Below, piece after piece: positions 1,776 to 27,000 of a DNA stretch of 33,635 bases (position 1 is the first letter of the stretch; each line of letters starts with the position of its first letter). The notes beneath the pieces were generated by a model that was given only the letters and a program-made list of their open reading frames with translations, was not told the origin of the DNA and did no database searches. The position numbers and the translations under genes were made by a program. Source of the DNA: Nanobdellota archaeon. Lineage in GTDB: Archaea > Nanobdellota > Nanobdellia > Parvarchaeales > Parvarchaeaceae. The DNA lies in contig JAJZNK010000014.1 of NCBI GenBank assembly GCA_021811735.1, positions 1 through 33,635 of the forward strand, in the 5' to 3' direction.

Positions 1776-2484
1776 ATGGGATTGTTTGATTTGATAGATT
1801 TCATGGCCGAAAAGGCATATGACAAATACAAAGACTCTAAGATGGAAAGTGCGATGGATAGCTTACTCGAGGCAGTAGATACTTGTTCAGTTAATTTGGA
1901 GATTCTTCCTTATGACATGGGCGATAATCCACATATCTTGAAAGGTAAGGTATACAGGTTTGGTAAAGACCAAGTTGACAGTTCGGCGGCCTCTTATTTT
2001 CTTGTAACAAATAGCTGGCTTAAGAAAGCAGGCGTGAATATTGACGATGAAAAGATTTATCAAGCAGCATTCAATGAAAAGGGGGGGCTATGCAATTTTG
2101 GGTCTTGCGGGCAAGCATCCAGCGATTACAAAAAACTATGCTAATTTGTATCCTAATAAACCCGCTTTTCTTTCTCTTTTTGTCTATTTGAACGAAAGTA
2201 GCGCATTACTATCCGTTCCCAGGTATTTTCAGGATCCAAAAGACAAAAAATTTAAGCTGAGTAAAAAAGCAAACGTCGATAAGTTTGGGCAATTTGAAAA
2301 AATAAGCAAAGATAATTCCTCCGAGATAGACGAAAAACTTAAAAATTTCTACTTAAGAGCAAAAACATTCGCTTACTTAGTTGCAAAAGAATTAAACGAG
2401 TATGACAAGGCAGACCTTGACAATGCATTCAAACAGTTCGAAGAAAAGCATGGAAAAGGAACGGAAATAAGTTATACTTTCTAA
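1776..2484 (+). pseudogene. Hypothetical protein, one coding region split by a single-nucleotide frameshift in a G7 run
   Basis: ORFs 1776-2144 and 2041-2484 overlap; removing one G from ggggggg (2081-2087) gives continuous ...FNEKGGYAILGLAGKHPAITKNYANLYPNKPAF.... Either sequencing/assembly error or real frameshift. Confidence 0.75.
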
Positions 2485-2533
2485 TAGGTAAATTCTCTTA
2501 AAAGAATATATATTAACACCATGTCTTCTTAGT

Positions 2534-4957
2534 ATGCTAACTCAGAGGGCACAGATAGTTATTGGAATAGGCGTTATAATACTATCTGCAGCTTTTCTTT
2601 TAGTTGGTGTATATTTTGCAAATTTACAAGGTCTTTTCTTTCAAAACGGTGCCAGATCCCTACAATTGTTTGCAGATAATGTCGGGTTTTCAATAAATTC
2701 ACTTTACAGTGCACCTTCTTCAATGAGCATTACGTTGAATGGCAATAATTCATTGTGCTCGTGGGACCCATCCATCTCAGCATACACTTGTGCAGGCGGG
2801 TCAAAAATTTACAACGTTTCATATTCGAACGGGCCAACACTGGATTCTGGTAAGAACGTCTTCAGTGTTGCATTGTGTTTTATGGTTGGTTATGGATTTG
2901 GAGGGGTTGGTGGCTCGAAATCTGTCGAAACAGAAGCTGCCGATGAAGCAGCTGCAGTTACTTCACAAGTTGCGGGAGAAGATGCAGCTAGTATTGGTGA
3001 AAAAAGTACGCAAATTGCAACAGGAGATACTGAGGCAGCTGCAAAAACCACTGGGACAGAAAGTGAGCAATCTCCAAGTTTGGTAAGCAAGATAGGTCAA
3101 CGAATAAAAAAAGGGGTTATAACCACTACAAAACGCATGTTTGTACAAGATATACCGGAGGATTCGCTTCTCTCAAGCAGCTTTTCCTCAATACAAAAGG
3201 CTTTGCGTCAATCATCAGCTTTTTTACCCGTAGCTGTTGCTTCGATGTCGGTGGCACTTGTAGCAGTCCCTATATTTGAATTGTGGTTTGGAACAAGCAG
3301 TAGCAATCTAAATACATATATAACAAAAGGAGTTTACGCCAATGGTCAGCAAGTCGGTGCATTAACAGGACCTTCCGTGTCAATAAGTCAACAGATTTCA
3401 GCCGCCTATTTCAGCCAGGAACCTCTTCCATTTAAATATGCAGCAGCAGATTTCGTTTTGCAGCAGTATTCGCATACCTTGTCAAGTCTGCAAACATTGA
3501 ACTCATTACCGCCAGGTATTGGAAAGGATACTTTGATATTATTCGCTTCAAAACAAGTTGCTGTAAAACAAAATGTTCTATCAGAATTGTCAAGTTCAAC
3601 ATCGGCGATATCAAATCCATATTCTACTCCTTATGGAGGAGTGTCGGCCCCAGGTGTTTTAAGCTCTCCAAGTTCTTCAATCGGTTCAATCAGTCTTTCT
3701 GCAAGTGGTGCGGATCCGTTGCTTTCAATAACTTCTTTTCTTGCACAGAATGCTTTCCTTGTTTATGCAAGAACTGCGAGTTGTCTTAGTTTGCCACCGC
3801 AGCCTTTAAATGGGAATTCGTATAATTCCTTTGGCAAAGGGTTTTCTGCTGCCTCTTCGGAATTTGGAGCAGCGACTACACTTGTTAATCTATATACAAA
3901 GATAAATTCTGTCCTTCCGTTAGGCACGTATTTTGTCGGTTACGGCGGCGAAGTGTACTTGAATGGGCAATCCAATGGTAAACCGACTCAAGTTACCAGC
4001 CCAATAATAACAGATATGAAAGATATGTGTGAACTTGCTAGTACTTCATCACAACCTGGCGAGAATTTAAACACTATAATACAGCCAAGCGGCAATGGTT
4101 CTATAACGTTTTCTTTGTCGCAAGGACTCTACAATACATTGTGTTCCAGAAATAATGCTCTATTTCCACACACTCTCCAAACAGATATTAATGAGCTTCT
4201 TAATTCCCAGTCAAATACACAGAACATGTCAGTGCTCCTGCCCCCTGGAGACGCATTAGCCATATCAAACAGCACCAAAACAATTAACATATGCATCTAT
4301 CGCATGCTTATTGACTCATTCGGCTCCCCAGTGCTATCCACAAGCGGATTTACTTCGTCTGTTTTTAACGTCACAGAATTTGGTTCGCCAATCTCCTGCG
4401 TAAATCTTACTAATTTGACCGGTGGAAAAGTTAATGTAGGAATGTTAAATTCGGAGGTTGGCGCATTAAATAATAATATGCTTTTAAACAAGGATTTTTA
4501 TATAAATAATGGGTCTCTGATAGGTTTTTCTGTACCTGTTACTGATTTTCCAGATAGTTTAACATCGGTTAATATTCTTGGTTCATCTAATAACTTTTTA
4601 TCTGCAGGTAATTTCATCGCCGGAGGTAATCCAAGGTTAAAGACTGAATCAGGAATTGATTTTCCAGTGGTTTCATTTTTAGCGAGCATAGTTAAAGCCC
4701 AAGCACCAAAGTTGCAGACTTCAATTTTTTCTTCTCTTGCCAACTATCTTATTTCCCCGCTTTTCATGATTTCTTCACATGCTACCAATTTATCTTATTA
4801 TGAGACCGATTATGCGAATGTAACTCTCCAGTTCCAGAGAATTAATAAAAATGGTATTATTTATTATAATATAACCAACACATATAATAACTTGGTTTTT
4901 GGAGTGTATCCAAACAATGCAAATTCATTTGGAGGTACATACTTTTCAGGTAGCTAA
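2534..4957 (+). CDS. Large membrane-anchored surface protein, first gene of pilin-like operon
   Basis: 807 aa; N-terminal hydrophobic helix (IVIGIGVIILSAAFLLVGVYF), further hydrophobic segments (VFSVALCFMVGYGFGGVGG; FLPVAVASMSVALVAVPIFELWF), Ser/Asn/Thr-rich rest with many N-x-S/T sequons. Confidence 0.8.
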   Translation: MLTQRAQIVIGIGVIILSAAFLLVGVYFANLQGLFFQNGARSLQLFADNVGFSINSLYSAPSSMSITLNGNNSLCSWDPSISAYTCAGGSKIYNVSYSNGPTLDSGKNVFSVALCFMVGYGFGGVGGSKSVETEAADEAAAVTSQVAGEDAASIGEKSTQIATGDTEAAAKTTGTESEQSPSLVSKIGQRIKKGVITTTKRMFVQDIPEDSLLSSSFSSIQKALRQSSAFLPVAVASMSVALVAVPIFELWFGTSSSNLNTYITKGVYANGQQVGALTGPSVSISQQISAAYFSQEPLPFKYAAADFVLQQYSHTLSSLQTLNSLPPGIGKDTLILFASKQVAVKQNVLSELSSSTSAISNPYSTPYGGVSAPGVLSSPSSSIGSISLSASGADPLLSITSFLAQNAFLVYARTASCLSLPPQPLNGNSYNSFGKGFSAASSEFGAATTLVNLYTKINSVLPLGTYFVGYGGEVYLNGQSNGKPTQVTSPIITDMKDMCELASTSSQPGENLNTIIQPSGNGSITFSLSQGLYNTLCSRNNALFPHTLQTDINELLNSQSNTQNMSVLLPPGDALAISNSTKTINICIYRMLIDSFGSPVLSTSGFTSSVFNVTEFGSPISCVNLTNLTGGKVNVGMLNSEVGALNNNMLLNKDFYINNGSLIGFSVPVTDFPDSLTSVNILGSSNNFLSAGNFIAGGNPRLKTESGIDFPVVSFLASIVKAQAPKLQTSIFSSLANYLISPLFMISSHATNLSYYETDYANVTLQFQRINKNGIIYYNITNTYNNLVFGVYPNNANSFGGTYFSGS

Positions 4958-4962
4958 AAATT

Positions 4963-5769
4963 ATGGCATTGATGGAGATGATGGCGTTTTTGAATGCAGG
5001 CATACTTATAGTTGCGTTTGCGCTTCTTTTAGTTGTTTTATCGTTCAGTATTTCACAGATAAACAGTAGCAGCGTATTTGCGAATTCAGAGTCCGTGGCA
5101 ACAGGGATAGGGACACGCCTCATAACCTCTCCAAACTGTTTTGCTTATAAGAACACAATAACATACTATAATTCAACTCTTGATGCACCTGGTGGACCAC
5201 TTTATTCTTCATCTTACACAGAACCAGGCGTCGTTAATGTTAACAAGTTTATCGAGAATTATTTCCTATCATGTATGCAGTATATATATTTTGGTGGGGC
5301 TACGAACATACCGGCTCTGCAATCAGATTTAGCGGCAGCCACAGGCGTATCCTTGACATTATCCGATACGCAGGTTCCAAGTGCGTTGGGCCCGACCGGT
5401 TCATTATATCTCTCAAATTACAACCAATTTAATTTTGGGAATAGTTTCCAGCAAACAGAGGCTTTGATACAAAGATATGCACAAATAGCACAATACGCAG
5501 CAATGGGTGCTAGTATGGTAACAAGTTTAGGGGTAATGATAGCTACAGGAGGCTTGATACAGTTCAACATAATACTCGCAATCGGACAGCAATCTAGTAC
5601 AGAAATACTTCCACAATATGCACTTGGAACAGTTTTTTATTCTGAAAATACCTATAAAGAATCGTTTCCCGTTGAGATACAATTTACAAATGCGAACGGG
5701 CAACCAACATTTCAAAACACAGGAGTATTAACAGTAGATGTAACTTATGGAATTCCGCCTTATAGTTAG
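4963..5769 (+). CDS. Membrane-anchored surface protein, second gene of pilin-like operon
   Basis: 268 aa; N-terminal hydrophobic helix (AGILIVAFALLLVVLSFSISQ) and second hydrophobic stretch; starts 5 nt after the previous stop. Confidence 0.8.
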   Translation: MALMEMMAFLNAGILIVAFALLLVVLSFSISQINSSSVFANSESVATGIGTRLITSPNCFAYKNTITYYNSTLDAPGGPLYSSSYTEPGVVNVNKFIENYFLSCMQYIYFGGATNIPALQSDLAAATGVSLTLSDTQVPSALGPTGSLYLSNYNQFNFGNSFQQTEALIQRYAQIAQYAAMGASMVTSLGVMIATGGLIQFNIILAIGQQSSTEILPQYALGTVFYSENTYKESFPVEIQFTNANGQPTFQNTGVLTVDVTYGIPPYS

Positions 5770-6331
5770 ATTCGGGAGAAAAGGTCAGCTTGAGGTGCTA
5801 GATCTAGTACTGGCTCCCATGGCTGCAGTCGTGCTCGCTGTACTAGCTTCTGCATTACTTCATAACGCCACTGCGAATCTGTTGACAGCCGTCAACCAGC
5901 AACCCGCTTCGTTTTCATGTAACTTTGCGTTGGACTCAATCTACAGTACATATTATGTGCATACTGCGTATACACTTTCCCAACTGGCTTTATCAAATCC
6001 GGGGCAGTACTCATTTGCCCAATCAAATAAACAACAAAGCTTATCCACAAGTTGTGGAGGTTCATGCAACCCCGCCTATAGTTATAGTCAGAGTTATCTG
6101 TACAATTCTTCATCTCTTTATGACGATTTTATAGGCTATTTTTCCGGATTTTCATTAAGTAATTTCCAGATTTTGACCGGCCAGCAGGCACCAACTTTAA
6201 ATGCTTTGGGTATTAAAGTTTTCCTAAATCAGATACCCGCAGGAGTGACGGGAAAGCAGGAATGCAGTCTTAATGTTTATAATCCTGCAAGTCCATTACA
6301 CCCCTATACTATCTATGGAGTGATGAACTGA
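5747..6331 (+). CDS. Prepilin-like surface protein, third gene of operon
   Basis: 194 aa; RKGQLEVLDLVLAPMAAVVLAVLASALL resembles an archaeal prepilin signal (basic-G-Q then hydrophobic helix with an early Glu); 23-nt overlap with upstream ORF. Confidence 0.75.
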   Translation: MEFRLIVRFGRKGQLEVLDLVLAPMAAVVLAVLASALLHNATANLLTAVNQQPASFSCNFALDSIYSTYYVHTAYTLSQLALSNPGQYSFAQSNKQQSLSTSCGGSCNPAYSYSQSYLYNSSSLYDDFIGYFSGFSLSNFQILTGQQAPTLNALGIKVFLNQIPAGVTGKQECSLNVYNPASPLHPYTIYGVMN

Positions 6332-9300
6332 TGGATAAAAAAGGACAGGCAAACATGATAGTTGTCCTTGGGATGGTTGCAGCTACCATATATATCGCTC
6401 TTAATGCCTTTGGTTACATAAGTAACGTGGGTTTAAGTTCGAAGATAGAGATAAGTGCTCAGAACAGTATCTACCAGACTCTTGCACTCAAAGACTATCT
6501 TCTCCAAGAGGCAAATTACAACTTTCAGAAGGCTCAGCTTTTCGATGGGTTAACTTTACAACCCAGCTCTGTTAATTGTGGTTATATAAATACTTCACAG
6601 TCATTACCCTTTGTTCCTATACCACAGGTATATTACTGGAGAAACTTTGCCGGGCAGATTTGTCTTCCTAACAATAATCTAATAGAATACGGACTGGAAA
6701 CTCTTCTTAATCAAAATTCTTTTGAAATAGTGAACTCATCAGGTACCGATATACAGTCTAATCTAATCTTAAATCTTTCAGTGAAAAAAGGTCAAGTCTT
6801 CTCCGGTAACTTCACTGCACCATTTCTGAGCAAGAATTACACGTTTTTCTATAATTCATCTTCCGATGAATTCTCTATTTGCAGACAGTCAAAAAATTCA
6901 TGCGTTTATACGTTAAATGATTCTCCAATTGGCTTAAACTTTAATATGTCCGGATTGACATTTACTTCCCTTCCCAACCAGAATGTTATATCAGGAGTAA
7001 TAAGCCAGGGAGTTTCTACAAATGCATTTTTCAGCGGTTCTGGACTTTCTCCGTCAAGTCAATATACCATTGTGACGTTCCCCGGTGGTAATATAGCAAT
7101 CCTATATTCAAATACTATCTCAGGGGTGACCAGTTTTAATCTGACACCTATGCCAAATAAGAATTTTTATACTCTTAATAGTGTTCTTGCATATGACAGA
7201 GGACATGGGATACAAAGTATTCAGTTAGTTAACAATTCGAATCAGATTTTTGAAGGGGTAAATTATACGTTTTCTGTAACATCCGATACAAATGGAGTCT
7301 TTTCGATAACTCCTACTAATTACGTCATGTTTGGAATCCAACCTCAGTTCGTTTATTACAAATATATACTGAATAGTATACAAAACTCTGGAGTACAGAA
7401 TCTCCTATTCCCTAACAACCAAAATCTTTATATCTCATATTCAGCGTTTCCTCTATATTCTCCACAGGTTTGCATCAATTATAATGAAGGGGAGTACAGC
7501 CTGCAAAACTGTCTTACTTTGTCGGATTCAATAACAGGTAAAAATTACCTTAGTCAGTTGATGCAGGTAGGAACAGCATTTGTAAATGAAAGTTTTCCGA
7601 TAGGTAACCAAAAAATAGAAGGGTTTGCTCAGTATGAAATAGATAATTACATTTCAAATGCTATAAATGCGGTAAATCTGAGAACAGTGTCTGTCAATGG
7701 CAGACCAAAGTATGACTGGTACTCTGCATTGATCCTAGCTTTGGGTTCGCCACAAGGTACAAATTACCTTATAAGTAAACTTGCCAACGTAAAGGAATCT
7801 TATTATAATACCTATATATATGACTGCGAACAAAGCGCAGCAGATCTCTCCTACTGCAGAAATTTGTTATCATCAACACTCTCTCAAGATATCATGGCTT
7901 TGTTCCAACAGCAAATGCCACAAGAACTTAGCTTCCTTTCCGGCACTAATTTCAATATTAACGTTTTGAATTTGTCTGTAAATGCAAGTGAACTTTCGTC
8001 GTGTACAAATGCCAGCAATTATAGCGTAAGTTCAAATTATGCCTATTCCGTAAACAGTAGTCCTGTAAACGGAAACTATTCAGAGGAAATACTTGGTATA
8101 CCAATATCCCTAGATTTCGGATATCAGAACAGTCTAAATTTACACCCCACCGAGGCGTGCGGAATACAAAAATCGCCGTATTCTACTGGCTATTCCGGAT
8201 TTTCGCAAGCTTTGATAACAAATAATAACACTTATATAAACTGTGCGCCGATAATGGCCCAAAGATTTCTTAACAATACGTGTATCGCAAGCCTTGAGAC
8301 TACAGATTCCAATGTTGCCAGTTATCTCAATTCCACGAGTTCTGCCCCGAGTAGAGAATTCTGCAGAAAAGAAACAAGTGGTCAGTATTTTTGTCCTTAT
8401 TATAAACTGTCTAGTTTTTCCTACAAAAACTGGCTCACAAACAGTAATAGTTGTCCGAATTACTTTGTAATAGACAATGAAAACTTTACGACCACACAAA
8501 ACAGTTACAGGTTAGTATCAGTTTACGGCGGTGGCGCAAATTCCTTGAGCTTGTCTTTTTACAATAAAACATTTGCATTATACAATGGTACTCTATCTCT
8601 CCCCACAAATCTAAGTTTTACAGTAGGATTCAACTCGACGGGGCCTTATGCTGGAATCGATGCGTTCTTCTCCACCAATAATCTTTTAACTGGGAGTGTT
8701 ATTTCAGCATCGTTTAATTCCGTGCATGATCCTATAGGGATATACAACTATTCTATATCAACAAATTCTTTAACTATGTTAAGTGGATCAAACAATTTTA
8801 TCTTTCCAAACACAAAAAACCAGATAAGTCTTAATAGATACTGCACTTCAGCAGGTTGCAACATAACATCGTATTTAAATTCAAAGTTCGAGAGCAGTTT
8901 TTACGGTAATTTCCCCTCTTCGACGTCAAGCGTAAATTTGCTAGGTGTTTCGACACCTTCCAGTTCTTCTTCAGCCATAGTAAGCTACGCATTCGTAAGC
9001 AATTTTATGCCAGCGTATAATCCTATAATAAATGAACTGTCATACACTCCTGCCACTCAGCTAAACCCCTCTCTAAATACCTCATTTGGTCTCACAACTG
9101 CTAACAACACTTATTTTAATGAATTTATTCTAAATTCGACTACTATGACAAGCACATATCAGTTAGAACTTGATCTCAACTCAAGGTTTAATTTTAAATA
9201 TATGTTACCTGGGTATATAAAGATCTTTGGGATTTATCCAAATAACAACGTAAAACAACTTTACTGGTGGAACCAAAATACTATAGCAAATGGTGGTGTT

Positions 9301-9738
9301 ATATGGGTCAATCTTACTCAAAATGTCCCAGCTGAATTATATGTTGTATATGGAGAAGGAGCATTAGCGAGTGGCAAGACATATGATAATGGGACATCTG
9401 TTTTTCCAATGTTCTATTTTATAAATCAAACAGGCAACTCATTTAATTTTCTGTATCCTAATAATAATCAGCACTCTATTGGTGCATTTTATTCGAATGT
9501 TGGCTTAAACCTTACAAATGAAGAACCAATCCCGCCATACGTCTATAATTCGACTCTTAACTTATATTATGAGGAATTTGCATGCATAAACAAAAATCCT
9601 TTCAATCTTATACTTCTTAACGGTACTTATTCTTCATCCCCTCCAAACTTTAATATAAATGAATTGTATAACAATTTTGGTACGCTTTATCCAAACCTCA
9701 CAATAATCGGTAAAAAAACTTATACGAGCTGGCCTTGA
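6331..9738 (+). CDS. Large prepilin-like surface protein with a DUF2341-like C-terminal region
   Basis: 1135 aa; MDKKGQANMIVVLGMVAATIYIALNAF N-terminus; TGATG coupling with previous gene; C-terminal YMLPGYIKIFGIYPNNNVKQLYWWNQNTIANGGVIWVNLTQNVPAELYVVYGEG resembles DUF2341-type beta domain. Confidence 0.8.
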   Translation: MDKKGQANMIVVLGMVAATIYIALNAFGYISNVGLSSKIEISAQNSIYQTLALKDYLLQEANYNFQKAQLFDGLTLQPSSVNCGYINTSQSLPFVPIPQVYYWRNFAGQICLPNNNLIEYGLETLLNQNSFEIVNSSGTDIQSNLILNLSVKKGQVFSGNFTAPFLSKNYTFFYNSSSDEFSICRQSKNSCVYTLNDSPIGLNFNMSGLTFTSLPNQNVISGVISQGVSTNAFFSGSGLSPSSQYTIVTFPGGNIAILYSNTISGVTSFNLTPMPNKNFYTLNSVLAYDRGHGIQSIQLVNNSNQIFEGVNYTFSVTSDTNGVFSITPTNYVMFGIQPQFVYYKYILNSIQNSGVQNLLFPNNQNLYISYSAFPLYSPQVCINYNEGEYSLQNCLTLSDSITGKNYLSQLMQVGTAFVNESFPIGNQKIEGFAQYEIDNYISNAINAVNLRTVSVNGRPKYDWYSALILALGSPQGTNYLISKLANVKESYYNTYIYDCEQSAADLSYCRNLLSSTLSQDIMALFQQQMPQELSFLSGTNFNINVLNLSVNASELSSCTNASNYSVSSNYAYSVNSSPVNGNYSEEILGIPISLDFGYQNSLNLHPTEACGIQKSPYSTGYSGFSQALITNNNTYINCAPIMAQRFLNNTCIASLETTDSNVASYLNSTSSAPSREFCRKETSGQYFCPYYKLSSFSYKNWLTNSNSCPNYFVIDNENFTTTQNSYRLVSVYGGGANSLSLSFYNKTFALYNGTLSLPTNLSFTVGFNSTGPYAGIDAFFSTNNLLTGSVISASFNSVHDPIGIYNYSISTNSLTMLSGSNNFIFPNTKNQISLNRYCTSAGCNITSYLNSKFESSFYGNFPSSTSSVNLLGVSTPSSSSSAIVSYAFVSNFMPAYNPIINELSYTPATQLNPSLNTSFGLTTANNTYFNEFILNSTTMTSTYQLELDLNSRFNFKYMLPGYIKIFGIYPNNNVKQLYWWNQNTIANGGVIWVNLTQNVPAELYVVYGEGALASGKTYDNGTSVFPMFYFINQTGNSFNFLYPNNNQHSIGAFYSNVGLNLTNEEPIPPYVYNSTLNLYYEEFACINKNPFNLILLNGTYSSSPPNFNINELYNNFGTLYPNLTIIGKKTYTSWP

Positions 9739-9739
9739 T

Positions 9740-12700
9740 ATGGGGAAGAAAGAAGTAATTGCATTAGAGATAACATTGATAGTCGTGGTACTTTTACTGT
9801 CGTTTTTAATAGTAAACAGGATGATAGCTATACACACTAGTATTGCAAAAAGTTACGCTTATAACTATGGACAGCAAAGTTTTGCATCACGCCAATTGTC
9901 AACTTCCAATATTGTACCTTTTAGTGGAAGTTCTGACATTTTAAGTAATTCGATCATAAAAAATGAATTTGTTGGTACAATTTCTAACTCTATTTATAGC
10001 AGTAATTTCTACTTCAATGAAAGATTTTATCCTGGGAACGTTTCGGTATCATCCAACGGTTATTCTTGTTCTATAGTAAACGAAATAAAAGGGCCACATC
10101 TCTGTTTAAATTTGTTTTCGTTGTTCTCCTGTGGAGGCGGACCAAAATTAGGAAGTCTTAGCAATCTCGTTGGTTATTTAGGATTTTCTCAGCAAGATTT
10201 TAATTTTCCTAATAATCAACGTGTTAATTACTCAAATCTCTACTCTGCATCACAACCAACATCTTTTCAGACGGTTTATCAATTACCACCAACATGGGAA
10301 TATCAGAATTTTATAAATTGGAGTCCTTCCTCAATTCATTCATATAGTGCTTCTCCATTTGGCTCTCACTATATGTATGCCATAAATAATTCTTTCACAG
10401 GTTATCCAAGTATTCCCGGAAGCATTTCTAAAAGTACTTTAATTATCCCAGCTGTTTCTTGTGGAGCTACATTTATAAATGACTTTGTGACGTATCCTGG
10501 CTTTCTTAATGCAATCTACGATTTATCTACTTTAAGCGGGTTTACTCCCTCAGTTTATCTTGCATCAAATGATGAAAGCAGTTTTGGAGCGGATTATGGG
10601 CTTGGATATCTATTAGTTGGAAACGGGTTTCCATGGACACATTCAACATTTAATTCTCTTTTAGCCTATCAAATTCAATCAACTTATCCTGCGTTTAATT
10701 ACACCATGCCGAGCGAAAACTATGCCCAGTTTCCAAGTGGAAATAAAGGGGATATCCAGTATGTAAATGTTACTAGTGAGTTTTTAACCCCCCTGTCAAT
10801 GAGTTATTATGGAGGGAGCAGCAATTCAAACGTATCTATATACTTATCAAATACTAGCATTGCTTCCACTGAAATTACTTCAAGCTCAGAAAATGTATGT
10901 ACTCCGAGTGAGGGTATGGGATGTGTACGCTATACAAAAGAAATTGTAACTGCAAAAAACACAGATACTTTTACTGATCCAAATTTGCAAAGTGCTTACT
11001 ACCCCAACTACAATAATGGTCTGTATGTTAACTTTAGAACAGACGGTGTGTTTCCTATATGTGCCTGGAATAAGTTAACTGGTAATATTTTAAGTAGCTG
11101 TACTTTTGAAAATTCTTCAACCATGAACAGCATAACTTATCAGAGGCTTTGGCTTTCAAATAACCTTAAAAATAACCAACTTTATAACACACCATTTACC
11201 CCGGGCTATTCTGTTTCTTCAGCACAAAATAACTTCACTTTAACAGCTTTGGATAGTTTTTGTTTTTATGGAGAACACTTTAACACGGCGAATGGTATAT
11301 ACACTTCCCCAAGTTACACTAGAATCATACCTCCTACCACAGCAGAGAACTACACCTCTGCTATAGGGACGTGTAATGCATTTTTCAATAATACCAACTG
11401 TTTTAGTCCAGGTGCAAGTCAGTACCTGAATTTTGAAGATGGGATTTTTGCAAATAATATAGTGTGTACTCCTTCTGGTATACATGCAAACAATATTACC
11501 GATGCATGGATAAGTTCCATATTTGTGGCGAATAATGCGGGTAGATACTGTGGTGATTTCCTTGGTCAGAAAAATCCCACTAATCCACAAGCAAATTCTA
11601 CCATATTTTTACAACAAATCTCAAATAACTGCCCAAGTTTCAATGCCAATGCATCTTCCGTGAACTTAGTTATAACCGTTAAAAATGTGGGAAATTCAGA
11701 AATAAAGAATCCTTACTTGATTGCACTTTACGGAAATAATAATTTAAGTACAATTTTCCCCAACTCGCAAAATGATATATTCACAACATATAATCTTTAT
11801 AAAAGTTTTCTTTCTGCGATGAGCGCTACAACTGGGATTATCCAAGTAGACTATAATAGTCAATTAAATACAAACATGTATGTTTTCGATAATGGTCATC
11901 CCCTTAATCCTATACCAGTGGACTCTTTATTTTTGCCAGGGGAAGGATACATAAACGGACCATTTGATAATTCTTTATTAGGGATGTTTATCTACAATAA
12001 AAATTATGGGTTGCCAAACAACGTTATAAGAACTTCTAACGTGGTTCTTTCACATTCTTCTTCAGGTAATTCGCAAGTACCTGTAATATTGCCAAATGGC
12101 ACTGCCACTTTTACAGTACAAGTTCCAATGTCCTTATTCAAGGTATTGCTTTCTGGAGAATATAATCTAAGTGTTTTTTTCGGAAACACTTTTAATGCAT
12201 CGTGGAATGGAGGAAGTTCGCCGGCTACCACTATGCAAAACCCAGGACAGACATTAGTTAATCCTTTAGTGTCGTCTTCTATAGTGAATTCCTCGCAAAT
12301 ACATAATAATGAACTTTTCTTCAAGAACAGTGGTCTGCCTTCTCCGTTATGGCAATACATCGTAAGCTACAATTTCAACATGGCAGAATCACCGTTCAGC
12401 AGTGTGGGACTTTATAATGATAATATATCAGTATCGGTGTCTTCATTAAATTCCACCTCCAATGCCCTTAATATTACCGTAAATCCTTCAGTATCAGTAT
12501 TTAACGGAAGTGGTTCGTATAACCTTGGATCCGACGCACTTACAGGTTCGTCCATTTCGTGTTTTGCTTCCCCAGATAATTTACAAGATTTCGGTGTGTT
12601 TTGGTCCAGGAGTATAGTTTCACCTTCTAATTTGAATTATGCATTATCAAGTAGCATATACTCTGGAGAACAGAAGCAAGCCAGTGATACACTCATAACT

Positions 12701-15700
12701 AGCTGGACTGGCATGTTGTTTATGCCTTACTCCGACCAGGTTGCACTAAATTATAATAACCTGCCGCATTATTTTCCTTCTAGTGTGTCTTTTCAATTAG
12801 AAAAACCAACGTTAAATACAACCTCAAACCAATTTTCGTATGAAGCGTTTGATTATTTCGGAAGCGGAAGTAAAAATAAGGTGTTTGCAGGGTTATCCAA
12901 TTCATATAGTCTATTAAATACTTCAGTCTCGTCTTTTCCAGTCAGTCTTCCGAGCAGTTCACTTGCATTTACGTTGGTATCAAATTCTTTAGTAAGTGAT
13001 CCATCAGTTCTAAGAATAGTGGGAACTGATACGTTTGTAAATTATTCAACGTTTTCAAACGAGTCATTCGATTTTTCAGTTACAAGTAATGGGGTTTTGA
13101 GTTGTTCTGGTAGTGAATACACCTCGGAAAATTCAACTTATTCAATTTCTAACACGATGTTTTCAAATTGTCTTAGCAATGTAGTTGTAAATAAGTCGTA
13201 TATAACCATCTCTTCATCACATGGGCCATTCTTTGTGGACATGTATAATAATTCCAATCTGAATATTTCCAATGAAACCTATGGCAATACTGTTTTAATG
13301 GGTGGAAATGAGACTCTCTCAAAGGCAGGAGGAAATGGGCAGTTCCAGATAACAATACCAATAAATACCTCTGTCAATAATGGCGTTACGTTTGTTTTCT
13401 CTCCAGTTCCACTGACAAGGCATCTTTACAACGCGAAAGTTTATTTGTACAATATAAATGGTACTCCGTTCAATTGCAACATAGTTAATGATTTTAACGA
13501 TACAGGCAATCTTGGAGTTTCACAGATAGGCATTGGAACATATTCTTTACCAAATGGTACAATGATGTGTAACCTAACTACAGATTTTACATATCTTAGG
13601 GCAGTTTTTGTAAACAGCTCAAATGGTGTCTACCTTGGAAGTGGTGATATACAATCCGGGTTAACAATCTCTAATATAAGTTCATCTTCGAGTAATGCGT
13701 TGAATGTTAGTATAAACGGTATCCCTGTAAACGCACAGAATGCAGAGATTTTATCACCACAAAAATATGACAGTTGTAACGTAACGTCACCAGAAAATAT
13801 TTACAATGGGATTCTTAAATATCCAACAGGGTGCTATAACTTGTCATATGCGTTTATAACATTTGATTACAATAATAATGGCACACAACTTCTCGAATCT
13901 GCAGCTATTTCACCAAAGAATTATTACAGGCATGGCCCGGATTTTATGTATTCTAGTCCTTCAGTGGCGACCACATCTCCTGTTTCAGAGTATAATTTAA
14001 GTATTCCAGATACCGGTGCAAGCGGTATACCTGTGCAGTTTTCTATACCAAATAACTTTGGTGGCTGCAATAATGTAATACTTACTTCTCAATTCCCATA
14101 TCCTTACGCTGAAATACCTTATCAAGTAATTTCTTCCAGTCCTGCTTCATGTGATTACGTTTTTGTAAATTCAGTAAGTCAAGGTTACTCTGTTTTTGCA
14201 ACGAATTCTCCTTCAATAGTCTATCCAAATAACTGGTTAAATTACACCAATTCTCAATACAATGTCCATGTCTCAACTAGCACATTCAATGGGAATGTTA
14301 TAAGTAACTGTCAATCTGGTTTTGGACCATGTATAGATTCGTTTTCTGTTGGTGGCAAGGATATTGGAAACCTGCTTTTCAATAATGTCTCAACATCCTC
14401 TGCAACGATTTCACAGTCTATAAATGGGCCAATTGAGGATTGTTTTACTGTGTTATATTCCTCTTCACAGACAGTAAATTTCCCAGAAACTGGGTTTGGC
14501 AGTATAAACTATGCAAATAACAAAGTATACCAAACCGCAAGTCCGTCTCAGTCCATAACCAGCCAATATTGTTTTTACGCAGGTTCATCTTTGATAACCG
14601 ACTCAATATTTGCTTCAGGTTCTCCTATAAGTTTCAAAGTCCAAAATCAGTTAGTATCCAATTTTTCTTATATTGAGGATAGCAATAACCGCATCTTTTC
14701 AGTCCCACCGGCGATAGAAGTAGGATATTCATCTTATGACAATGTAAACGTAAGCGCGATAAATATAACTGCTTATAATATAACAGGGGTTAGTTTTCTA
14801 TCAAAATGCGCAAATTATACGATTACAGGATCCAACGCAAGTCTTACTCCATTCAGTCAAACAAACGGAACAAATATAAGTAGCAGTTATATGAATAGCA
14901 GCGTCGGACCACGTTATTGTTTCTATGGCGGAAGGCCTTCGTATACTCCTGAATTTTCACTAGGCTCTAAAAATAATTCAAACTCTTCTACAGGTTTAGG
15001 TTTTGCATATCAACCTGGTAATTATACAAATGGTGTAGGTACGCTTTACGACTCCTGTCTCACCCCTGGAAGTTTATCTATTTCTTCCGAACCATTGTTT
15101 TATCTTAACGGTAAACAAGTGACATATAGCGGTTCCACAGCTGAGAATAATCTAATGGGCAATTCATCAAATTATGCCGGGTCTGAAATGCTCTTCAGTA
15201 AAAACGGTGGAGTTTTCATCAATAAATGCGCTCCGAACACACTAATACTAAGTTCTACCACGTGCACAAAACTTATTGATATAATACCACAAAATGGCTC
15301 TTACAATAGCATAGAAGCAATACCCTCTGGTTCAAATGGCAATTTGTCATTTGGTGGCGGGTGTTATATAGGGACGCTGAACAACGTAAATTATAACTGC
15401 GCACCTACTGATGGGACTTTAAGTTATAGTCTTTCGTCTAAGTCTACAACAACTTCAACAGTATCCGTATCAAATATATTACTAAACAAGACTATTGCAC
15501 CTACTTCAGCATTACAAGTCTCATTTGACTGCAGTATTACTGCCAGTGTGACAGGCAGTTCAAATCCAGTTTCCAATTCATGTAGTTACCCCAACAATAA
15601 GAATTCAGGGATATGCTCAGCCAGCGTTTCGTACAGTAAGATAAATTCGACTGCTTACAACATTACTTCAGAATGTTCGGCTATATCGACTAAATCTGAT

Positions 15701-18700
15701 ACTATCAGTAAGATTACTACCAACAAGCTAAGTAATCTATATATAACTGGATCACAGTCGGAAACGACAGGTTTAATTTCCCCCACTACTTTTCTATGTG
15801 GTAACAACACCAATTTTATAAATACAAATGTAATTAATGGATGGACTTGGAAACCTTATTCTACTGCTGGTTCTATAAATCCCGCGCCAAGCACAAATAC
15901 GTTAGGAGTGGCAGAAGTGGGAGGATGCGAAGCAGGGAGATATTCGTTCGAAACACAGACACCAAATATTACAACAAACTATTCCGGTAATACTCCTCAG
16001 CAGTTTTATTCATGTAGTCCTGGTTATACTGGGACTATCACCGCATGCAGCCAAGGAGTTTCTGTAGCGAATTCTACCGCTAATATCCCTCCAAACACCT
16101 CATCGTGTTATCAAGATAATGTCACGCTTCTAAATTCAACTATTTTGAACAAAATTATAAATGGAAATAATACAGGTGGGCTTGGTACTAGTTGTAATGC
16201 ATTTAGCAGATCAGGGTATATCTCGCCGACTGTCTCTGACAATTGTATAGCATATCCATTCCCTGTTGTAAACTCAACGTACTCATCCTACGAACTGCAG
16301 TATTCAAATTCGAGTGGTTATGGCCTAGGTATGGGGATAATCGGGAAAAGTTATGAACTAAACGTTTCTATCCCAAATGGCAAGCAGCAAAATTCAATAA
16401 AAGATAGTTATTTTACGGGGTTGTCAGAATCTCAATTACAATCTGGAAGTGATATACTGACAAACATTCTGCCAACATCTTTGCTGGAATCGAATTTACC
16501 AAGCAAAGCTCTATCCATTTCCGCTGCATATTCGTATGATACACTCAATATATTGATGTTACAAAATCCATCTTTTGGGGTCAGCGGTATACCTGGTTTT
16601 GTTAATGGAAGCATACTTGACTATGCCTTGAGTATTTTTACTGGGGGAACATCTGGGAACTGTGCTCAACCTTACAGTAAAAACGGCTATGGAATTTTTA
16701 CTTTAGGAGAGGGAGAACTATGCTCAGGTAGGACTCTGCCATCAAGTTATAAAAATGGGGTGTTTTTGTCTTTAGGGAGTCTAAACGAGGGCTTGCATTC
16801 CCTACAGTTTTACAGCATTGGTAACACGACCAACGAAGCACAACCATCAGTCTCTGTTTTCGACAGTGTCAGTAATGCGGTAAATCTCAACAATGCATGC
16901 ACAAATGGCAATAAAAAAGTATTTACATCCGTTTACAATGGAGGTCAATGGAGTTTCAATATAACATCGGATCAACAGTGTACTCCAGTTAATAACAAAT
17001 TGTATGGTTACATAGTAAACTGCCTTTATCAGACTCCTGGAAACCAAACATATACGATAACATCGCAGTATTATCTAGCTTATAACCTGCCAACGGTATG
17101 GAATATAAGTTATTCATTATTAGTTTCGCCAAAGAGTTACCAGGTCGTTCCAACGCCAGTTTATCAAATTAATTATTCAACTGGCTCGATACTTACGTTC
17201 CAGCACCCTAATAGAACCACATTTATAGAAAAAGGCTTGCCTAACGGATACAAATGGAGTATGACTTTTGATCACATTAGTAGGACTTCTTCCTCAAGCA
17301 ATATATACTATTATTCGCCTGGAACACATTCATTTGAGGTTTCAACACTGTCCAATCGTTCATCAACAAGTGACTGTTATACAATCTATACTTCAGCTCC
17401 CGGGTCTGGTAGTGAAACCTCAGGTACTACAACCTATATAGAGTTTACAGGTGTGACTACATGTAATAGCTACTTTAAGCAAACTGGACTGCCAGATGGA
17501 ATAAATTGGAATGTGACATATGACGGTATATTAGGAAGCACCTCAAATCAAGGCGCATCGGCTTCTACTCAAAATGGTTACGTTAATGTAATCAGTGGTT
17601 CATTGATGGAGTTTATAACAAGCAACAACGGTGGATTTGGAGGTAATTTCTTCTATTCAGTAAGTGATGTGCATACCTCCTGTTCCACATATACACCAAC
17701 TCCTTCTTCAGGATACCTTCTAGCCGGTACTAATCAAACAGTGTCGTTTTCAAACTCAAAGTGCATCACTAAGATTACTACATTCAATGAAGGAGGGTTG
17801 CCAGCTGGAATTCCGTGGTCAGTCGATTATAATGGTACTACTAAAACTAGCACAGTCTCCGAAATAAATTTCACTGGATTAACTGGCACGTATAGTTTTT
17901 CGGTTAGCACATCGTTTTCACCGTCTATTTTAATAAATAATCAGCCTGTTGGTTCTTGCAGTTATGTGCCAGTGCCTTCTTCTGGTAATATTCCAGCAGG
18001 CCAAGTGGAAAAAATAACCTTTGTGAAGAGCTGTAAACAATTCTTCACCTATGTCAGTGGGGGAACGTCTACTAGTTCTTTAGTTATCATGCTCAAAAAC
18101 GTTTCTCGTGGCGAAAAAATATTAGTATCTAACTTTATAAATTTTGGAAGCACTGGCGGCAGTGCTGTGATAAGTGATTCATTTGGGGATAGCTTCTACA
18201 CAACACAATCACATTTTTCTCAAAACGCACAGATTTATTATTCTAGTTGGGAAGCAACGGCTTCGAATACTGGCAATGATACCATAACAATAACTTACCC
18301 ACACCCTGTCACTTCCTATGCCACGGCCATAGGTTTGGTAGGATATTATCTAGACACATTGAATTATTATGTGAACCCCAATAGTTGTTCAATAACCTCA
18401 ATAACCCCAAACCCTGGGGAATTCGTGTTTGGGATTTGTCACGCTGGTGGGGCTAGTTCTGTAGATAATACATCTGGATTTTATTCAATGCCACCTTCCG
18501 AATCATTTGCGGCTTCTGAGTATTCTTTGCATTGGCCGGGTGGTTCGACAACAGTGCCATTTACCGTGATAAATAGTCTCACTCCGATAGATGATGTTTT
18601 AACAATTTCAAACGTTTCCCCGACGACATCGGCCACATTTTCAGAGACAGGTTTACCCGCAGGTTCTTCATGGTCTATTTTCTACCATTACACCACCTTT

Positions 18701-18940
18701 AGTTCATCAAGCAGTAGTATAACCGCGTATTCTACTAACGGATCCTATTCATTTACTGCCGAAAACGCGATAGGCGTAGTATGTTCATCAACCAGTCCAG
18801 CTGTATTTGGTGTTTACTATGAATATAATTATTCTCCTTCTCCTTCCCAGGGCACCGTTACTACGCCAGGCTCTCAGACTATAACTTATAATAAAGTAAG
18901 CGGCACCGGTACTAAGACTAGTGTTACTTGCACTGGTTAA
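9740..18940 (+). CDS. Giant (3066 aa) surface protein/putative adhesin with C-terminal GLPxGxxW repeats
   Basis: Uninterrupted ORF; MGKKEVIALEITLIVVVLLLSFLIVNRM pilin-like N-terminus; very rich in S/N/T and N-glycosylation sequons, poor in K/R/E; paired cysteines; C-terminal repeats. Confidence 0.85.
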   Translation: MGKKEVIALEITLIVVVLLLSFLIVNRMIAIHTSIAKSYAYNYGQQSFASRQLSTSNIVPFSGSSDILSNSIIKNEFVGTISNSIYSSNFYFNERFYPGNVSVSSNGYSCSIVNEIKGPHLCLNLFSLFSCGGGPKLGSLSNLVGYLGFSQQDFNFPNNQRVNYSNLYSASQPTSFQTVYQLPPTWEYQNFINWSPSSIHSYSASPFGSHYMYAINNSFTGYPSIPGSISKSTLIIPAVSCGATFINDFVTYPGFLNAIYDLSTLSGFTPSVYLASNDESSFGADYGLGYLLVGNGFPWTHSTFNSLLAYQIQSTYPAFNYTMPSENYAQFPSGNKGDIQYVNVTSEFLTPLSMSYYGGSSNSNVSIYLSNTSIASTEITSSSENVCTPSEGMGCVRYTKEIVTAKNTDTFTDPNLQSAYYPNYNNGLYVNFRTDGVFPICAWNKLTGNILSSCTFENSSTMNSITYQRLWLSNNLKNNQLYNTPFTPGYSVSSAQNNFTLTALDSFCFYGEHFNTANGIYTSPSYTRIIPPTTAENYTSAIGTCNAFFNNTNCFSPGASQYLNFEDGIFANNIVCTPSGIHANNITDAWISSIFVANNAGRYCGDFLGQKNPTNPQANSTIFLQQISNNCPSFNANASSVNLVITVKNVGNSEIKNPYLIALYGNNNLSTIFPNSQNDIFTTYNLYKSFLSAMSATTGIIQVDYNSQLNTNMYVFDNGHPLNPIPVDSLFLPGEGYINGPFDNSLLGMFIYNKNYGLPNNVIRTSNVVLSHSSSGNSQVPVILPNGTATFTVQVPMSLFKVLLSGEYNLSVFFGNTFNASWNGGSSPATTMQNPGQTLVNPLVSSSIVNSSQIHNNELFFKNSGLPSPLWQYIVSYNFNMAESPFSSVGLYNDNISVSVSSLNSTSNALNITVNPSVSVFNGSGSYNLGSDALTGSSISCFASPDNLQDFGVFWSRSIVSPSNLNYALSSSIYSGEQKQASDTLITSWTGMLFMPYSDQVALNYNNLPHYFPSSVSFQLEKPTLNTTSNQFSYEAFDYFGSGSKNKVFAGLSNSYSLLNTSVSSFPVSLPSSSLAFTLVSNSLVSDPSVLRIVGTDTFVNYSTFSNESFDFSVTSNGVLSCSGSEYTSENSTYSISNTMFSNCLSNVVVNKSYITISSSHGPFFVDMYNNSNLNISNETYGNTVLMGGNETLSKAGGNGQFQITIPINTSVNNGVTFVFSPVPLTRHLYNAKVYLYNINGTPFNCNIVNDFNDTGNLGVSQIGIGTYSLPNGTMMCNLTTDFTYLRAVFVNSSNGVYLGSGDIQSGLTISNISSSSSNALNVSINGIPVNAQNAEILSPQKYDSCNVTSPENIYNGILKYPTGCYNLSYAFITFDYNNNGTQLLESAAISPKNYYRHGPDFMYSSPSVATTSPVSEYNLSIPDTGASGIPVQFSIPNNFGGCNNVILTSQFPYPYAEIPYQVISSSPASCDYVFVNSVSQGYSVFATNSPSIVYPNNWLNYTNSQYNVHVSTSTFNGNVISNCQSGFGPCIDSFSVGGKDIGNLLFNNVSTSSATISQSINGPIEDCFTVLYSSSQTVNFPETGFGSINYANNKVYQTASPSQSITSQYCFYAGSSLITDSIFASGSPISFKVQNQLVSNFSYIEDSNNRIFSVPPAIEVGYSSYDNVNVSAINITAYNITGVSFLSKCANYTITGSNASLTPFSQTNGTNISSSYMNSSVGPRYCFYGGRPSYTPEFSLGSKNNSNSSTGLGFAYQPGNYTNGVGTLYDSCLTPGSLSISSEPLFYLNGKQVTYSGSTAENNLMGNSSNYAGSEMLFSKNGGVFINKCAPNTLILSSTTCTKLIDIIPQNGSYNSIEAIPSGSNGNLSFGGGCYIGTLNNVNYNCAPTDGTLSYSLSSKSTTTSTVSVSNILLNKTIAPTSALQVSFDCSITASVTGSSNPVSNSCSYPNNKNSGICSASVSYSKINSTAYNITSECSAISTKSDTISKITTNKLSNLYITGSQSETTGLISPTTFLCGNNTNFINTNVINGWTWKPYSTAGSINPAPSTNTLGVAEVGGCEAGRYSFETQTPNITTNYSGNTPQQFYSCSPGYTGTITACSQGVSVANSTANIPPNTSSCYQDNVTLLNSTILNKIINGNNTGGLGTSCNAFSRSGYISPTVSDNCIAYPFPVVNSTYSSYELQYSNSSGYGLGMGIIGKSYELNVSIPNGKQQNSIKDSYFTGLSESQLQSGSDILTNILPTSLLESNLPSKALSISAAYSYDTLNILMLQNPSFGVSGIPGFVNGSILDYALSIFTGGTSGNCAQPYSKNGYGIFTLGEGELCSGRTLPSSYKNGVFLSLGSLNEGLHSLQFYSIGNTTNEAQPSVSVFDSVSNAVNLNNACTNGNKKVFTSVYNGGQWSFNITSDQQCTPVNNKLYGYIVNCLYQTPGNQTYTITSQYYLAYNLPTVWNISYSLLVSPKSYQVVPTPVYQINYSTGSILTFQHPNRTTFIEKGLPNGYKWSMTFDHISRTSSSSNIYYYSPGTHSFEVSTLSNRSSTSDCYTIYTSAPGSGSETSGTTTYIEFTGVTTCNSYFKQTGLPDGINWNVTYDGILGSTSNQGASASTQNGYVNVISGSLMEFITSNNGGFGGNFFYSVSDVHTSCSTYTPTPSSGYLLAGTNQTVSFSNSKCITKITTFNEGGLPAGIPWSVDYNGTTKTSTVSEINFTGLTGTYSFSVSTSFSPSILINNQPVGSCSYVPVPSSGNIPAGQVEKITFVKSCKQFFTYVSGGTSTSSLVIMLKNVSRGEKILVSNFINFGSTGGSAVISDSFGDSFYTTQSHFSQNAQIYYSSWEATASNTGNDTITITYPHPVTSYATAIGLVGYYLDTLNYYVNPNSCSITSITPNPGEFVFGICHAGGASSVDNTSGFYSMPPSESFAASEYSLHWPGGSTTVPFTVINSLTPIDDVLTISNVSPTTSATFSETGLPAGSSWSIFYHYTTFSSSSSSITAYSTNGSYSFTAENAIGVVCSSTSPAVFGVYYEYNYSPSPSQGTVTTPGSQTITYNKVSGTGTKTSVTCTG
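17217..18045 (+). repeat. Three consecutive degenerate GLPxGxxW protein-domain repeats (about 83-103 aa each)
   Basis: FIEKGLPNGYKWSMTFDH; FKQTGLPDGINWNVTYDG; FNEGGLPAGIPWSVDYNG; each followed by a Cys-bounded segment (e.g. CSTYTPTPSSGYLLAGTNQTVSFSNSKC, CSYVPVPSSGNIPAGQVEKITFVKSC). Confidence 0.85.
18630..18940 (+). repeat. Fourth GLPxGxxW domain repeat at the extreme C-terminus
   Basis: ATFSETGLPAGSSWSIFYHYTTFSSSSSSITAYSTNGSYSFTAEN...YEYNYSPSPSQGTVTTPGSQTITYNKV. Confidence 0.8.
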
Positions 18941-25488: not shown

Positions 25489-27000
25489 ATGCGAACCAAT
25501 CAGCATAGAACTGCAGCTGAGAAAGAATCTTCTCCTATATATATTCACACACACACACACACACACACAAAAAAATTTAGCCAGTTAACTCTTCTAGACA
25601 GCAGAAAAGCCCAGTCGGCCTTAGAATATATGATGACGTATGGTTGGGCAATATTAATCATAGTAATCGTAGCAGTAATCCTCTACAGTATGGGTATCTT
25701 CAACCCATCATCAAGCGTATCCTTCACAAGCTCAGGCTTCTCCCCTTTCACAGTCTCATCCTCCTCATGCAACAGCATAGGCTATAAGGTAGCAGTGATA
25801 GCAGGTCCAATCCCAAACAATGCAAACTCCCTGCAAATAACCAAGGTATACGTAACATCTGCATCAGGAGCAAATACCTCTAGTTCAGTGTATACTCTGC
25901 CATCACCAATAACTCTCAAAAGCAGTCAATCAGCAGTCATAATAGTCCCAAACGTCGCCTGTAATGCAGCAAACGTAAAGTATTCCTTCTCTGCAATAAT
26001 ACAGTATACTTATAGTGTCCCAAGCATAGGAAACCAGATAATAAACACATCAGGCACAGTGGCAGGCACGTCAATAGCAGGAAAACCCTCCATCCTAACC
26101 TCATATGAACCCTTGACGATAACCAATACTCAGACATCAGCCACACCCTCACCCTTCCAGCAGATGATTAATATGACAAGCACAGATCCAGGCTGGTCCT
26201 CAATAGCAACCTCAAATTTCGCACAAAACGTGGAGTTCTTCTACTACAACGGCAGTATAATCCCTTCTTGGTTAGAGAATTACACCTCCTCCGGAGCGAT
26301 CTGGTGGCTTAAGCTTCCTTCTATCTCTAATTCCATGGTAATCTACATGGGCTTCGCCCCTTCTTCCACATCCCTTTTCAACACAGTCAGCACAGGTGAA
26401 GCCCCTCAGCTATCCTCCACATATGCAGAATACGATGATGGCGCAAGTATTTTTTATAGTTATGCAGGTAAAAATACACTTCTCATGCAACCTTATACCT
26501 CTTTGCAATCTAATGGAGTTTTCTTTGATCTTAATAACTACGAAGATACAATTGCTCTAAATTCTACTGATTCTACAGGGATACTTGCTATGGTAAAAAC
26601 ATATCCCATTTCTCCTGCCAGTGATCTCTGGCACTTTTTAATAACAGGTTCCGTTGGTAATGGTTTCTACTGTGGCCAGCGTACAGTTGGAAATGGAAAC
26701 AATTTTTTTAATGGATATGGGGCTGCAAGTATCACCATAAATGGGGGTTTTGGTAACCCTTCAAATTATTTCAATGAGTTTGTTCCATTTTATTATAACT
26801 TTTCTAACGGAGTGTCGATTTTGTCGATAGACAACGGACAGGAAACTGGGCGCGCTACTTATAGTACCTCTGCATTTGGCAGCGGAGTAGGTTCGATACA
26901 AGTACAATTGTTTTGGAATATAACTGTACAATATGTCGCCCTGACAAATTTGCCACCAAACGGTGTAATGCCTTCCGTTGCGTTTGGTAGCATTTCTTAG
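25489..27000 (+). CDS. Class III signal peptide-containing (pilin-like) surface protein with DUF2341-like domain
   Basis: 503 aa; KAQSALEYMMTYGWAILIIVIVAVILYSMGIF class III signal; central NVEFFYYNGSIIPSWLENYTSSGAIWWLKLPSISNSMVIYMGFA DUF2341-like. Confidence 0.88.
   Translation: MRTNQHRTAAEKESSPIYIHTHTHTHTKKFSQLTLLDSRKAQSALEYMMTYGWAILIIVIVAVILYSMGIFNPSSSVSFTSSGFSPFTVSSSSCNSIGYKVAVIAGPIPNNANSLQITKVYVTSASGANTSSSVYTLPSPITLKSSQSAVIIVPNVACNAANVKYSFSAIIQYTYSVPSIGNQIINTSGTVAGTSIAGKPSILTSYEPLTITNTQTSATPSPFQQMINMTSTDPGWSSIATSNFAQNVEFFYYNGSIIPSWLENYTSSGAIWWLKLPSISNSMVIYMGFAPSSTSLFNTVSTGEAPQLSSTYAEYDDGASIFYSYAGKNTLLMQPYTSLQSNGVFFDLNNYEDTIALNSTDSTGILAMVKTYPISPASDLWHFLITGSVGNGFYCGQRTVGNGNNFFNGYGAASITINGGFGNPSNYFNEFVPFYYNFSNGVSILSIDNGQETGRATYSTSAFGSGVGSIQVQLFWNITVQYVALTNLPPNGVMPSVAFGSIS
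25546..25575 (+). repeat. (CA)12 dinucleotide tract followed by A6, in coding frame (HTHTHTHTKK)
   Basis: Direct reading: attCACACACACACACACACACACACAaaaaaattt. Confidence 0.98.

Follow-up and report, generated by a model that had tools for sequence, protein, structure and literature searches.

What kind of surface apparatus is encoded by five adjoining genes for pilin-like and giant proteins in the genome of a host-dependent archaeon? The genes lie at 2534-18940 of a 33,635-nucleotide stretch of DNA, called the window, and the original prediction, made from the letters alone, saw in them a resemblance to a minor-pilin operon and a possible attachment system of DPANN (Parvarchaeota) origin. 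The origin is confirmed, the genome being one of the Parvarchaeales, of ARMAN-4/5 type; among named records its relatives are MAGs of Candidatus Parvarchaeota and Nanoarchaeota and, further out, Candidatus Rehaiarchaeum and Candidatus Haiyanarchaeum. The window (G000:C18) is one of 52 contigs of a genome of 877,581 bases that is ~89 percent complete.

A Compact Operon of Five Genes

Five co-directional open reading frames, of 807, 268, 194, 1135 and 3066 codons, occupy the predicted positions:

g1, 2534..4957, + strand: 807-aa pilin-like protein with a large ectodomain
g2, 4963..5769, + strand: 268-aa pilin-like protein, leaderless in the window's genus
g3, 5747..6331, + strand: 194-aa small pilin-like protein
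g4, 6331..9738, + strand: 1135-aa modular pilin-like protein
g5, 9740..18940, + strand: 3066-aa giant surface protein with a hydrophobic N-terminus lacking a prepilin motif and with 60 Cys
putative TATA-like box, 2505..2515, + strand: A/T-rich, weak, ~20-30 nt before the g1 start, suggested by reading of the sequence

The tight junctions and the TGATG coupling that had been claimed are present, with g1 and g2 separated by 5 nt, g2 and g3 overlapping by 23 nt, g3 and g4 sharing the TGATG at 6329-6333, and g4 and g5 separated by 1 nt. The operon is flanked by a CCA-adding-enzyme/tRNA-Asn block on one side and an adenosine-specific-kinase/tRNA-Met block on the other. Kyte-Doolittle profiles also agree with the prediction that every protein begins with a hydrophobic helix, each having one strong N-terminal segment; both g1 and g2 have extra internal hydrophobic segments, the second, internal stretch of g1 spanning aa 227-253. 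Searching the g1-g5 sequences against Pfam, NCBIfam and the PDB yielded nothing usable. The description of the ectodomains as rich in N-glycosylation sites mostly did not survive comparison with shuffled sequences, since composition accounts for nearly all sequons (95 in g5 against 80 ± 7 in shuffles, 38 in g4 against 29 ± 5, and no excess in g1-g3).

Prepilin Leaders in g1, g3 and g4

Three of the five N-termini had been assigned to the prepilin type. The count was right; the third member is g1, with RA/QIV, and not g5, whose 'KKE' had been read as such. Class III leaders are found at the following sites (the slash marks the cleavage position):

g1 leader cleavage motif RA/QI, 2546..2557, + strand, by a FlaFind-type pattern
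g3 leader cleavage motif KG/QL, 5780..5791, + strand, by motif pattern
g4 leader cleavage motif KG/QA, 6340..6351, + strand, by motif pattern

In a loose form ([KRNE][GAST]Q beside the first hydrophobic segment, a FlaFind-type pattern) the motif recurs in 24/25 orthologues of g1, 24/24 of g3 and 25/25 of g4 (73/74 overall). The same loose form occurs in only one of 30 other proteins with an N-terminal transmembrane segment taken from the same loci as a comparison set, in none of 27 g2 orthologues from the window's genus and in none of 22 g5 orthologues. By motif, the N-termini of g1, g3 and g4 are of the prepilin type rather than ordinary Sec signals. Distant g2 proteins begin with K[AGS]Q leaders, and in the window's genus g2 mostly starts with MAL-x-E, each of the 20 aligned sequences having Glu, Asp or Gln at position 5. 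It is possible that g2 lost its leader and yet retains the Glu5-like residue of mature pilins. The model of g2 consists of a 53-residue N-terminal helix (residues 3-55) followed by antiparallel strands; a pilin fold is unproven for g2 because the confidence of the model is modest (pLDDT 61) and a fold search with it against the PDB gave no significant match.

Conservation of the Gene Order

In every complete relative that we fetched, the genes stand in the order g1-g2-g3-g4-g5. Because the same five genes recur in the same order, the operon is not a chance arrangement, and the module is real and conserved rather than an artefact. The order is conserved not only within genus and family but also in further families of the class. 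We found g4 in 28 of the 57 genomes searched (own genome included), mostly from the same genus and family, and weaker g4 matches in three genomes from other families of the class. A g2 profile extended to many more families; once broadened, it matched 52 of 193 high-quality genomes and, counted by genus, 66 of 250 in the class. The neighbours of distant g2 genes were named g1, g3 and g4 by their position relative to g2, and the names were tested independently by comparing profiles of near and distant sets. Like pairs scored 94, 99, 95 and 97 percent and unlike pairs at most 33 percent, and these diagonal matches confirm, at the level of sequence profiles, the orthology of g1-g4 across families. 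Eighteen weak g2 matches were checked by neighbourhood, and nearly all lie within runs of co-directional ORFs with N-terminal helices, most of which have a prepilin-like motif beside the hydrophobic helix. One weak first-round match (G144, L058) lies outside any pilin cluster and was taken as false. We also dropped the idea that the operon is dispensable in some Parvarchaeum species. The species with no match mostly lack the downstream neighbour gene as well or reach a contig edge, so that gaps in the assemblies are an equally likely cause.

Downstream of the cluster, translations at several loci (L046-L051, L062) read as an FKBP-type isomerase, FtsZ, NusG/Spt5 and ribosomal proteins. The recurrence of these genes in several families marks, as far as the translations tell, a stable chromosomal neighbourhood.

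A Motor Orthologous to That of Clusters in Relatives

The original prediction noted that no ATPase, platform protein or peptidase could be recognised nearby. All three are indeed absent from the window; the accompanying hint that the operon is an orphan does not hold, as all are encoded in the same genome. Two T2SSE/T2SSF motor sets lie on contigs other than the window's. Contig C52 carries a 507-aa ATPase and two TadC-type genes, and contig C16 a 746-aa ATPase and a 705-aa protein, the latter weakly T2SSF-like by Pfam and similar over its full length to TadC of relatives. An A24 prepilin peptidase is encoded at C47:2012-2353 (E 1.7e-14), and PF06847 (Arc_PepC_II, EppA type) had no match in the genome. 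The region of the A24 peptidase (L094, C47:1-6000) also holds four pilin-like ORFs with KGQ, KGA and NGQ leaders, candidate major pilins by their sequences. On C16, a subtilase with a Sec signal directly precedes the 746-aa ATPase and the TadC gene (L019:11256-13664).

In relatives from several families, a C16-type ATPase and a TadC open the same co-directional cluster that has the g1-g5 block at its 3' end, the extended order being ATPase, TadC, single-helix proteins, small KAQGLP pilin-like ORFs, g1-g2-g3-g4 and a Sec-type g5. The ATPases of these clusters are 47-52% identical to the C16 ATPase of our genome and the TadC proteins 30-38% to its TadC. Among 30 genomes with coordinates for both genes, the ATPase lies 6-27 kb upstream of g2 on the same strand in 14, from 9 families (binomial P ~1e-17 under random placement, the genomes being treated as independent though related). 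This linkage weakens the case for the C52 motor, with its 507-aa ATPase and two TadC proteins, as the partner of the operon.

Nearly every genome of the class, 380 of 383, has a match to the C16-type ATPase, a few of these matches being weaker and possibly paralogous. At 12 further ATPase loci, from genomes with no g2 match, an adjacent multi-pilin run was seen in 3 (L127, L128, L135); the notion that the cluster always accompanies the ATPase was rejected, most of these loci having no such run. Two single-contig genomes, G040 (L125; 490,885 bases) and G052 (L126; 605,887 bases), keep the ATPase and have no pilin cluster adjacent to it. The length of G040 equals that published for N. equitans, and the A24 peptidase had no match in that genome.

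Small ORFs of 84-160 aa with a single helix and the pattern K[AG]QGL[PS]xxxIVIxxxAxxVLxV recur class-wide in these clusters, often in tandem (L114-L119, L096-L113); the one ORF tested received no NCBIfam name.

A Predicted Lectin-like Domain in g4 and a Variable Tail in g5

The two largest proteins can be divided as follows:

g4 beta-sandwich, aa ~745-900, 8563..9030, + strand, the mapping being inferred from the well-predicted strands of the model
g4 DUF2341-like stretch (YWWN...IWVN...VYGEG), aa ~925-1030, 9103..9420, + strand, from motif positions
g5 conserved body, aa ~400-2600, 10937..17539, + strand, 25-83% identity per 200-aa segment among six relatives
g5 hypervariable C-terminal tail, aa 2601-3066, 17540..18937, + strand, 0-42% identity, of variable length in relatives

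The N-terminal region of the g4 model is poorly predicted (pLDDT <50), with low-confidence helices at 3-33 and 38-75, and its beta domains are well predicted. In a structural search the model matched, at probability 1.0, the carbohydrate-binding module CBM66 (E 1e-4), galectins and the LNS domains of neurexins. The sandwich at aa ~745-900 is presumably the region behind these matches, and g4 is predicted to contain a carbohydrate-binding-like beta-sandwich. At the sequence level, DUF2341 was detected in 5 of 13 g4 orthologues and a LamG-type domain in 1 of 13, the window copy matching neither.

Between species, the tail of g5 can hardly be aligned, and both its length and its GLPxG modules vary; in the window copy the modules are at aa 2499, 2583, 2686 and 2971 and extend into the tail. 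The g5 counterparts of other families have a LamG lectin domain, FG-GAP repeats, or a PQQ propeller together with PKD repeats.

Comparison with Known Systems

The leaders of g1, g3 and g4 and the synteny in relatives bear out the resemblance to a minor-pilin operon. In M. xanthus, each cluster encodes four minor pilins and a Sec-exported PilY1, which form a priming/tip complex (PMC7541494). Like the FimU-PilV-PilW-PilX-PilY1 set of type IVa pili (T4aP; PMC7541494), the operon combines four pilin-like proteins of varied sizes with a very large Sec-exported protein, and, as in PilY1, adhesive beta-rich modules are found on a large protein, namely the propellers and lectin domains of g5 relatives. 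Unlike T4aP minor pilins, g1 and g4 are very large proteins in their own right, and g2 is leaderless. Furthermore, Pfam and NCBIfam revealed no homology of g1-g5 to FimU, PilV, PilW, PilX or the C-terminal propeller of PilY1, and because of this we describe the five proteins as working like, and not as a member of, the minor pilin-PilY1 complexes.

Among archaea, the minor pilins of clade 1 type IV pili (T4P) number five or more and are accompanied by two large DUF2341 proteins, for which a role as PilY-like tips has been proposed (Makarova 2016, PMC4858521). The present locus likewise has many minor pilins and a DUF2341-bearing large protein; it differs in that DUF2341 is weak and fused to the leader-bearing g4, that EppA (PF06847) was not found in the genome, and that the linked motor in relatives comprises one ATPase and one TadC. 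Clade 1 systems are marked by a clade 1 ATPase, an EppA peptidase and two TadC proteins; the C52 set of our own genome has two TadC-type genes, and no EppA was found with it. DPANN 'dark matter' islands with a secretion ATPase, TadC and diverse predicted pilins have been noted (Makarova 2019, PMC6393860, Fig. 2A) and are probably loci broadly similar in kind to the extended clusters of other families; the five-gene giant module, its cross-family orthology and the lectin-like domain are not described in that paper's text. From Parvarchaeales genomes, PilA-type pilins have been reported along with some other structural proteins, and archaellum genes from one MAG (PMC10134863). Our literature search, which covered a minority of subscription papers and preprints, found no description of the five-gene module. 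The predicted graft of a lectin-type domain onto a minor pilin in g4 recalls PilC of Streptococcus sanguinis, a modular lectin minor pilin at the tip of its filament (as described in PMC12075869), though the organism is unrelated and g4 bears several further domains. Relative to known filament tips, what is new is the unusual size and the predicted sugar-binding pilin.

A Tip Module Proposed for Host Contact

We consider it probable that a type IV filament has the products of the five genes as its tip (priming) module, made of minor pilins and a giant adhesin and enlarged in Parvarchaeum. The proteins g1-g4 would be minor pilins, of which g1, g3 and g4 would be cut by the A24 prepilin peptidase after [KR][GA], with g2 joining them without a leader. 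Their N-terminal helices would bundle into a short starter of the filament, and the C16-type ATPase with the TadC platform would push this bundle outward atop separately encoded major pilins. There g4 would display its lectin-like beta-sandwich and DUF2341-like domain, and g5, exported by Sec, would sit at the tip or close to it, serving as a giant adhesin whose body is conserved and whose end varies. Jointly, g1-g5 might then let the cell attach to sugars or to a partner cell's S-layer; the lifestyle of these archaea and the domain content (a lectin-like domain in g4 and a variable tail in g5) make host attachment plausible. Imaging has shown ARMAN cells physically linked to Thermoplasmatales, by structures that are partly pili-like and often ascribed to the partner (PMC4110969).

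The same proteins could instead build a membrane-anchored surface coat or S-layer-like complex, their N-helices staying in the membrane and their ectodomains forming an adhesive or protective layer with no filament. The ectodomains are very large, rich in S, T and N and poor in charge, the anchor of g5 is of a non-prepilin kind, g2 has no leader, and in our own genome the motor genes are on other contigs, all of which suits a coat. We nevertheless think a coat unlikely, since a plain anchor has no need of a conserved prepilin site, the leaders of g1, g3 and g4 are near-identical across otherwise divergent proteins, and in relatives the genes sit with an ATPase, a TadC and small pilin-like genes. 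A pseudopilus akin to type II secretion (T2SS), whose short filament would expel cargo, perhaps g5 or the C16 subtilase and for instance towards the host, is very unlikely. Its layout of several minor (pseudo)pilins with one motor is matched, and the Sec-signal subtilase ahead of the C16 ATPase is a possible cargo, or else a processing protease, but the clusters showed neither a secretin-like gene nor another hallmark of the T2SS, and giant exposed domains fit display better than the action of a piston. That g1-g5 are components of an archaellum-related structure or of a generic PilA adhesion pilus is highly improbable: class III leaders and T2SSE/T2SSF, common to all such systems, speak for it, but g1-g5 have no archaellin-type or PilA family match in Pfam or NCBIfam, and the ATPase linked in relatives is of the 746-aa type, not the 507-aa C52 type with two TadC proteins.

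On a wider reading, the multi-pilin cluster, with the operon as its tip module, would encode the filament of the DPANN attachment apparatus seen in Nanobdellota, together with the head by which it contacts the host. Cryo-tomography has resolved this apparatus into a cone, a portal and a thin tube into the host, and the papers on it state that the proteins composing it are unknown (PMC11420986, PMC11104419). The imaged organelle includes parts that no pilus would explain, G040 and G052 have the ATPase without the adjacent cluster, and we regard this equation as distinctly unlikely.

The locus supplies conserved candidates for the recognition and holding of hosts by obligately host-associated archaea. 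Both a motor and a sugar-binding domain are predicted for it, and its variable tail can be compared among species that live with different hosts. It also puts forward pilins for a motor present in nearly all genomes of the class. One nanoarchaeal T4P ATPase type was listed as having no identifiable cognate pilins (Makarova 2016, PMC4858521), and this may be the C16-type ATPase.

Other Genes of the Window

Upstream of the operon, frames at 1776-2144 and 2041-2484 (both +) correspond to a single 234-aa ORF in a relative (G013, L027:1416-2120), and the split reads as a frameshift, real or from assembly. Downstream, 25489-27000 (+) encodes a protein of 503 aa that has a canonical class III leader (KAQSALEYMMTYGWAIL) and matches DUF2341 weakly, by these features a stand-alone large PilA-like pilin. 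A tandem pair of Na+/H+ antiporter genes occupies 30958-33385 (-).
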